In this document: piece after piece, positions 1 to 939 of the stretch
Numbering within the stretch: the first letter of the stretch is position 1
Layout of the letters: each line of letters starts with the position of its first letter
Source of the DNA: Caryophanales bacterium UBA6768
GTDB lineage: Bacteria; Bacillota; Bacilli; Bacillales_D; Amphibacillaceae
DNA length: 6,540 nt
Assembly: GCA_002453315.1 (NCBI GenBank)
Contig: DKGO01000188.1
Coordinates: 1-6,540 of the forward strand
Reading direction: 5' to 3'
Notes under the pieces: generated by a model
What the model was told of the DNA's origin: nothing
The model's database searches: none
Seen by the model: only the letters and a program-made list of their open reading frames with translations
Translations under genes and position numbers: made by a program

Positions 1-240
1 GTCGCTCCTGTTGGCCCTGTGGCTCCTGTTGGTCCCGTCGCTCCTGTTGGCCCCGTCGCTCCTGTCGGTCCCGTGGCTCCCGTTGGTCCCGTGGCCCCTG
101 TTGGTCCCGTGGCCCCTGTTGGTCCCGTGGCCCCTGTTGGTCCTGTGGCTCCTGTTGCTCCCGTGGCTCCTGTTGCCCCTGTGGCTCCTGTTGATCCCGT
201 TGCTCCCGTGGCTCCTGTCGGTCCCGTGGCTCCCGGCTCA
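1..240 (-). repeat. Collagen-like GPT/GAT coding tandem repeat
   Basis: Degenerate 9-base units, each encoding one Gly-X-Y triplet (mainly GPT, GAT, rarely GST), fill this stretch and continue past the window edge. The low-complexity repeat also keeps two other frames open on the plus strand; these are artefacts. Such arrays commonly vary in copy number between strains. Confidence 0.9.
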
Positions 241-476
241 CCCATAAGGCTCTCTAGCCATTCTTCCCTGCTTCCTTCAAACCCATCTTCAACGGCGATT
301 TCATAAGCACTCAATCCAGTTGCGCCAGTTTGTCCCGTTGGACCTGTTGCTCCCGGTGGTCCAGTGACACCTGGCGGCCCTGTTGGTCCTCGTCTACCTC
401 TTTTTTTATTTTGCGAACTTAAACAACTATCATTCAAACAATCACAATGGTAATGTCCACACCTATAACATCCCAA
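1..476 (-). CDS. Collagen-like spore-surface protein with Cys-rich N-terminus (C-terminal part outside window)
   Basis: On the minus strand this frame reads Gly-X-Y triplets, mostly GPT and GAT, without interruption to the window edge, the pattern of BclA-type exosporium collagen-like filaments. The start must be TTG at 476: an in-frame TAA lies at 500-498, no ATG or GTG lies in frame between, and AGAGGTG sits 7 bases upstream. The head (residues 1-20) carries Cys at 3, 6, 11, 13 and 18 plus His 8 and 10, followed by a basic KKRGRR stretch and the first triplets. Residues about 55-79 form a non-collagen insert, [14 protein letters not shown] followed by SREEWLESL, then GEPGATG resumes the repeats. 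The insert resembles a short motif seen in collagen-like and tail-fibre proteins. The usual exosporium leader is not recognisable. Thr-rich triplets are typical O-glycosylation sites in BclA. The gene lies 37 bases after an Ena-family gene, so it is probably co-transcribed and may be the fibre's collagen-like partner. The trimerising C-terminal domain is not visible. Confidence 0.85.
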
Positions 477-513
477 GAAAACACACCTCTCTCTTAATTA
501 AATGAAATAATCG

Positions 514-939
514 TTACACAGGAACTCTAGTATTCAGACAAATTTCACCCTCACATACCTCCTCCGATAGATTAGCATCGCCTGAACATTCTATTGTGAT
601 ACGATCAAATCTAGTCAGTGAAAAGGCTACACTACTATCTTTAAAAACGTTGATAGGCAATCCAATTTCTCTACCATCTAAATAAAACTTAACAGTAACA
701 AAATCTGAATCACCATCGTCAAACCTAACAAATCCAGTAGCAAAAATATGCTCATGCCCTGATGAGTGGAAAATGGTTTGAGTTTGTAAGGCTGGTATAG
801 ACCACTCAGCACAAATGCAATCCTTTACTAACTTACTATTGTGGCTACATTGATTTTTATGGCAATTAAAATTTGGACTTCTTCGTGAACACAAACATTG
901 CACAGGCTTTCCTTGACAACAACTTCTACAACTTTCCAA
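514..939 (-). CDS. DUF3992/Ena-family endospore appendage subunit, Cys-rich
   Basis: The 141-residue product resembles the Ena (S-type endospore appendage) subunits of the Bacillus cereus group. Visible signatures are LVKDCICAEW (residues 37-46), matching the KVCNPW-type start of the Ena core, ATGFVRFDDG (67-76), VAFSLTRFDRI (104-114), and the closing GEICLNTRVPV (131-141), matching GEFCITTRY. The core is a jelly-roll fold in known Enas. The N-terminal connector is long and holds a CC pair (Cys 7 and 8) plus Cys 4, 15, 17, 26 and 31; there are 12 Cys in all. In known S-Ena fibres the connector cysteines make disulfides with earlier subunits, including the two conserved core cysteines, here probably Cys 43 and 134. 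Start: no ATG exists in frame and an in-frame TGA lies upstream. TTG at 948 abuts AAAAGGAG directly, so TTG at 939, nine bases downstream, is preferred. The extra cysteines and length could indicate a minor or terminal subunit rather than the main one. Confidence 0.8.
   Translation of the reverse strand: MESCRSCCQGKPVQCLCSRRSPNFNCHKNQCSHNSKLVKDCICAEWSIPALQTQTIFHSSGHEHIFATGFVRFDDGDSDFVTVKFYLDGREIGLPINVFKDSSVAFSLTRFDRITIECSGDANLSEEVCEGEICLNTRVPV

Follow-up and report, generated by a model that had tools for sequence, protein, structure and literature searches.

Genes and features of the locus

The stretch of DNA analyzed here comprises the first 6540 bases of contig DKGO01000188.1 of Caryophanales bacterium UBA6768 (hereafter the window), and carries at one edge two adjacent genes on the same strand: ena, coding for a protein related to the subunits of endospore appendages (ENAs), and, downstream of it, a collagen-like gene. 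ENA fibers have been characterized in the Bacillus cereus group. The window is taken to be the entire contig, 6540 bases being the greatest length among contigs known to carry this Ena protein. The features concerned are the following, with positions counted along the window:

514..939, minus strand: ena, TTG start, 141 amino acids, with a DUF3992/Ena jelly-roll domain and a long Cys-rich N-terminal connector
835..939, minus strand: connector at the N-terminus of the Ena protein, some 35 residues with 7 Cys, including one CC
3..476, minus strand: 5' part of the collagen-like gene, 158 codons, TTG start, running past the window edge
399..476, minus strand: Cys-rich N-terminal connector of the collagen partner, from an alignment of 11 partners
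477..513, minus strand: gap between ena and the collagen-like gene, 37 nucleotides (nt), with the ribosome-binding-like GAGAGGTG
949..954, minus strand: ribosome-binding-like AAGGAG, 9 nt before TTG 939
982..1010, minus strand: promoter-like box GCCGTATCA-N16-AATA, continuing AATAGCTTA, starting 71 nt upstream of the ena start

The ena start is best placed at TTG 939, the codon at which a database prediction (P0001) also starts. The original prediction for this locus, made from the sequence alone, had a collagen-like gene following ena after 37 bases with no terminator between them. The coordinates bear this out, as does a terminator scan of positions 1-1900, which found no terminator-like site in the gap; the gap itself folds weakly (-2.4 kcal/mol).

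The Ena protein

The Ena-like identity proposed at the outset was checked by a profile search, in which the protein clearly matched the Pfam family Enas (PF13157; DUF3992), scoring 66.9 bits where the cut-off is 22 (E=2e-18; residues 34-143 of a 144-residue reading); the lack of a DUF3992 match, which the original prediction had named as a refutation, was therefore not observed. Enas was the sole family above cut-off, and DUF4183, the F-ENA subunit family, was absent from the Pfam matches at E<=1. A sequence search of the PDB returned Ena1B and Ena2A, not Ena1C (7a02, E=1.4e-8; 9i0y, E=5.2e-8), and 8pdz was not among its matches at E<=1. Moreover, the structure prediction that had been suggested as a further check gave an AlphaFold2 model with a mean predicted local distance difference test (pLDDT) score of 82.9, whose fold matches 7a02, 9i0y, 9t3p and 8pdz; the protein is thus predicted to adopt the jelly-roll of solved ENA subunits. 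In fold score, Ena1B and Ena2A stand approximately 2 Z above Ena1C, to which identity is 10%, and pLDDT is low (52-56) across residues 1-30.

The protein contains 12 cysteines (4, 7, 8, 15, 17, 26, 31, 41, 43, 118, 129 and 134). All 12 had originally been assigned to the connector; the total holds for the whole protein, while the connector has only 7, its length and Cys count being taken from an alignment of 44 proteins (A2), and its CC is C7-C8. According to the available part of a 2021 review (PMC8619143), Cys10 and Cys11 of the Ena1B connector bond to Cys109 and Cys24 of lower subunits. C43 and C134 of the window protein align with both of these acceptor positions (Cys24/Cys109), and are kept in 34 and 31 of the 44 aligned proteins, respectively. 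The covariation of C43 with C134 fades when the alignment is thinned (9e-6 at 44 rows, 0.006 at 25 and 0.24 at 15, Fisher values that, as throughout, are only indicative), and it was not used as evidence. C118 and C129 are both present in 34 rows, one without the other in 2 and 0, and neither in 8; this signal survives thinning (p=1e-4 at 25 rows, p=0.002 at 15), and the two residues may form an additional disulphide. The pair lies outside the Ena1B bond scheme as given in the available part of the same review.

In a phylogenetic tree, a separate group (100/99) unites the 19 window-type rows with three rows from close genomes and leaves out Ena1B/Ena2A. This group joins Ena1/2 and four other rows at 96/94, in an order that the tree does not fix, and Ena3A falls away from the window type, in a cluster with five further rows (94/90). 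The tree carries a long-branch warning for its rows of CotZ-Ena fusions, proteins described below.

Recurrence of the pair in relatives

Searches of protein databases gave five relatives of the Ena protein and then 62 by profile, the named ones belonging to Pseudogracilibacillus, Neobacillus, Calidifontibacillus and Bacillus sp. Among genomes, a first scan of contigs confirmed no relative, and a wider alignment then gave four loci. The family is sparse, with any Enas match in 18 of the 398 genomes of a class sample. The A2 profile matched 23 of 397 genomes at E<=1e-8 in two order-level searches covering nearly the same genomes, the second of which contributed only G004, and at E<=1e-15 it matched 5 of 193 and 3 of 159 genomes in further samples. 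Ten genomes have an ena match at E<1e-45 (G001-G004, G473, G568, G896, G897, G899 and G922) and are referred to below as close.

Gene pairing was surveyed in these ten genomes and in three with a more divergent ena (G406, G737 and G1057). A collagen-like gene lies downstream of ena on the same strand in 12 of the 13, and is immediately next in 11. In G922 it is approximately 2.1 kb away, with a glycosyltransferase-like open reading frame (ORF), recognized by eye, in between; in G737 no collagen gene was seen in the approximately 1.5 kb of contig remaining on that side. In G002 and G473 the collagen gene sits between two ena genes. Further out, one of four loci with a more distant ena has a collagen ORF (L086, but not L083, L084 or L085), and when 29 loci from the wider Enas family were viewed with 1.5 kb flanks, four had one (L012, L013, L018 and L034); L040-L069, named genomes excepted, lie outside this survey. 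Related genomes are not independent, but since the pairing recurs in relatives, it appears to go beyond chance.

Genes for sugar metabolism also lie near the pair in L001-L004, namely glycosyltransferases and a pyruvyl transferase (Pfam). In addition, dTDP-rhamnose synthesis genes were observed beside the ena-collagen-ena clusters, at 8556-10950 of L002 (Pfam) and at 10689-13992 of L075, the G473 pair (rml-like, by eye); we take them to recall the sugar genes of BclA glycosylation.

Plasmid and phage proteins gave no match to the Ena query, and plasmid searches gave only a Paenibacillus place with an Ena1B stretch and no match with the CotZ-Ena fusion. As a separate observation, the B. cereus group is not alone in having Ena3A-type genes (L012, L013, L134 and L135): they also occur on plasmids of Priestia megaterium and Peribacillus, and in two further genomes, where a collagen-like ORF follows downstream. 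A plasmid record of Klebsiella grimontii, possibly from a mixed sample, matches as well.

The collagen-like partner and its connector

The collagen-like identity of the second gene was likewise upheld, as its product matches Pfam Collagen (PF01391) with 66.5 bits against a cut-off of 27.2 (E=1.8e-18). The collagen tract consists of 10 and 26 GXY triplets on either side of an insert ending in EEW, and a SAYE-type insert of this kind was found in the window only, among the loci compared. The head domain is not visible because the gene runs off the end of the window.

The first 18 residues of the protein include 5 Cys. When aligned with the partners of the ten close genomes (11 rows), all N-termini proved Cys-rich, with C3 and C6 invariant and a later CxC in most. 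A profile of this connector, searched against 32 genomes, matched all ten close genomes and none of 22 others, the latter being the three with a divergent ena and the 19 first-listed non-matching genomes, a non-random choice. There was one match per genome, except for two in G922. As the ten genomes found by the profile had also supplied it, together with the window, the informative part of this result is the zero elsewhere, together with the near absence of stray copies. The collagen partners in G406 and G1057 are without the Cys-rich connector.

The heads of the partners vary: they are BclB-related in L001, L002 and L075 (E 2e-48 to 2e-51), of the BclA_C family in L078 (4e-51) and L089 (9e-50), and weakly so in L004 (6e-4, below cut-off), while those of L003 and L079 match no family. 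L080 and L081 were left out of this comparison, and L076 and L082 are cut.

A CotZ-Ena fusion in relatives

Near the pair, relatives encode a protein of 196-237 residues with a CotZ-like N-terminal half and an Ena-like C-terminal half. For four such proteins, hhalign gave 97.1% for the N-half against CotZ and 96.6% for the C-half against Ena, compared with 0.6% and 0.3% when the halves were swapped. The fusion is present in nine of the ten close genomes and in none of the 22 others at E<1e-70; its profile was built from six of the nine carriers, and it was the profile that found G568, G896 and G897. Two of the controls, G939 and G942, match weakly and in the CotZ part only. In eight of the nine carriers the gene lies approximately 0.3-15 kb from ena, the ninth (G568) having it on another contig.

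NCBIfam CotZ_rel matches the two fusions tested (E=1.4e-12 and 4.8e-11), both under the curated cut-off, and the G899 fusion was recovered by Pfam CotZ with 22.1 bits, or 30.9 with its neighbours. The model of one fusion is poor overall (57.9), and Foldseek nonetheless puts five ENA chains on top. G922, the only close genome without the fusion, has no CotZ match at all; such a match exists in 11 of the 13 genomes with ena. The window itself, which is cut and too short to show such a gene, contains none. The fusion is likely a third part of the system, an anchor, whose gene stands at other places in the clusters of relatives; the original prediction missed it.

A promoter-like box upstream of ena

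The AATA form of the promoter-like box occurs once in the window, against 0.01 expected by chance. In general form (GCCGTnnC, a fixed spacer of 16-17 nt, then AATA or ATAT), it precedes 12 of 15 ena genes, starting 18-74 nt before them, with carriers in the window, L001, L003, L004 and L075-L081; the start codons used for ena in L075 and L076 are probably too early. The second ena of G002, 11 nt past the collagen gene, was excluded from the 15 starts and shows no box in the 120 nt upstream. As background, 18 of 1768 pieces of the same loci contain the box, true sites included. Five collagen genes with gaps of 100-125 nt carry a copy of their own (L003, L004, L079, L080 and L081, the last three closely related), and the remaining eight, that of the window included, do not.

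The box resembles a SigK -10. A promoter pattern for SigK, with CATA as its -10, had been tried and was replaced by the GCCGT box, because among 16 upstream regions L082 alone contained it (0.059 per region after shuffling). Further box sites were observed in L003, L116, L119, L120, L034, L047 and L084, and also in L055, within or next to an S-ENA-like gene. Taken with the recurrence of the pair and its short gaps, the box upstream of ena suggests that the two genes would form one operon.

Proposed function and alternatives

The analysis returned a subunit with the Ena fold, a cognate collagen-like partner bearing its own Cys-rich connector and, in relatives, a CotZ-Ena fusion; from these we infer a fiber with a tip on the spores. 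We consider it probable that the pair is a late-sporulation operon for an appendage of the exosporium (or outer coat), with Ena as shaft and the collagen-like protein as tip. The CotZ-Ena fusion would sit in the CotZ/ExsY lattice of the exosporium and offer its Ena domain as a seed, on which Ena subunits would stack as they do in ENA fibers, held by beta-sheet augmentation and by disulphides of the connector. A collagen trimer would then cap the distal end of the fiber, docking via its Cys-rich connector; the collagen protein may be glycosylated, and its head domain, differing between species, would set what the spore sticks to. The original prediction had read the locus as a divergent fiber-plus-tip pair in an apparent operon. 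Its observation is confirmed in part, and its interpretation is supported in part, with recurrence in relatives, short gaps and the upstream box speaking for a divergent Ena and its collagen partner in one operon.

Two results weigh against parts of this proposal. The box is not bound strictly to ena: a stricter form of it has seven exact places in seven whole genomes, of which three are at ena and four elsewhere, and no ORF of at least 50 residues starts within 180 nt of the places L147, L150 and L151. Against the CotZ-Ena composition of the fusion, Pfam recognized only Enas in three of these proteins, once above and twice below cut-off, and no CotZ.

A more specific version, which we put forward tentatively and hold somewhat short of an even chance, is that the system is a distinct lineage of disulphide-linked spore pilus with a lock-and-key tip, the connector being exclusive to this Ena lineage and the head freely exchanged between species. 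If so, the collagen connector would be the signal for tip docking, and connectors could serve to find the tip proteins that belong to other Ena types (e.g., S-ENA ruffles).

The chief alternative, unlikely but still to be reckoned with, is that Ena forms a closed ring base as Ena1C does, fastening the collagen protein to the spore to give a BclA-like hairy nap. However, the nearest matches in sequence and in fold score are the polymerizing subunits Ena1B and Ena2A rather than Ena1C, Cys residues stand at both Ena1B acceptor positions (C43 and C134) with a CC in the connector, and a separate anchor-like protein exists in the CotZ-Ena fusion. It is less probable again, and on the whole improbable, that the locus encodes a plain S-ENA, in which an Ena1C-like ring would hold an Ena1/2 homologue to the coat and the collagen neighbour would be a ruffle protein. 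Ena1B and Ena2A are indeed the nearest solved relatives, NCBI calls some relatives 'S-Ena type endospore appendage', and PMC12921279 states that the S-ENA ruffle genes have not been identified; but the window-type rows group apart from Ena1B/Ena2A (100/99), the connector has about 35 residues against 15 in Ena1A/B, and the anchor-like protein is CotZ-fused, in L-ENA style. Finally, that a low-complexity surface protein follows ena by mere chance is very improbable and largely contradicted by recurrence: collagen-like genes are common in Bacillaceae, and three of the four more distant ena loci and 25 of the 29 wider-family loci have none (within 1.5 kb for the latter), but adjacency is repeated in close relatives, the partner connector separates genomes 10/10 from 0/22, and at gaps of 100-125 nt each of the two genes has the same box.

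The proposed appendage would provide a parts list (anchor, shaft and tip) for a separate ENA lineage in other Bacillaceae genera, with the collagen connector as a sequence tag marking the tip partner. Tip docking would become testable in species such as Pseudogracilibacillus, with the prospect of disulphide-linked fibers carrying swappable heads. To the best knowledge of the authors of the 2021 review, in its available part, the ena1/ena2 clusters are unique to the B. cereus group (PMC8619143), although proteins of other genera already bear the name Ena at NCBI. A literature search by genus names found no paper on these genes, as judged by title or abstract opening.

Other genes in the window

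The rest of the window contains a Sigma-70 region 2 protein of 223 amino acids (1910-2581, minus strand), with no NCBIfam match above cut-off; an alpha/beta hydrolase (2772-3593, plus strand), whose best named relatives, from Cytobacillus, Lederbergia and Brevibacillus, are 61-65% identical, which points to a Bacillaceae-like host with no named bacterium closely related to it; a formamidase-like protein with two internal CxxC pairs (4581-5867, minus strand); and a cut HpcH/HpaI aldolase gene (6020-6538, minus strand). At approximately 4042-4197 lies a stretch that looks degraded by eye and shares 74% identity with the istB gene of an IS21-like element, the sole plasmid DNA match of the window.

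Comparison with known spore appendages

Among known systems, L-ENA of Bacillus paranthracis (ena3: exsL, l-bclA and ena3A; details from the available parts of PMC12921279, PMC11952670 and PMC12628813) has a similar set of parts, as there too a DUF3992 shaft gene adjoins a collagen-like gene, and the ExsL-type anchor (a CotZ domain with a C-terminal DUF3992) resembles the CotZ-Ena protein in the clusters of relatives. However, the window subunit is not Ena3A-like, either in the tree or by sequence (no match to 8pdz at E<=1), the gene order is ena then collagen instead of the bclA-ena3A of the known operon (PMC12921279, available part), and the hosts lie outside the B. cereus group. The L-ENA fiber has ladder-like rings and a single tip fibrillum and is attached to the exosporium.

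The same logic of anchor, shaft and collagen-like tip is seen in F-ENA (DUF4183), with F-Anchor and F-BclA (PMC11952670, available part), but its shaft family differs, DUF4183 not being among the Pfam matches of the window subunit at E<=1. The BclA/BclB exosporium glycoproteins share with the partners the collagen tract and, in relatives, BclB-related or C1q-like BclA_C heads; they differ at the N-terminus, where the partners have a Cys-rich connector and visual inspection alone showed no leader of the BclA type. Ena1C, the anchor ring, has in common with the window Ena a DUF3992 fold and a longer, Cys-containing N-terminal linker, but fold score and identity are low, as given above, and a collagen partner of Ena1C is not described in the literature passages available.

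Nearest to the window Ena by sequence and predicted fold are the S-ENA subunits Ena1A/B and Ena2A, with which it has in common the CC of the connector and Cys at both acceptor positions. Nevertheless, it falls in its own tree group and not with Ena1/Ena2, its connector is long where that of Ena1A/B has 15 residues (PMC8619143, available part), and it is accompanied by a collagen partner and, in relatives, by a CotZ-Ena anchor. Overall, the parts list is L-ENA-like but the subunit is not of the Ena3A type, and the subunit is S-ENA-like but differs in grouping and connector length, which together point to a separate ENA variant.
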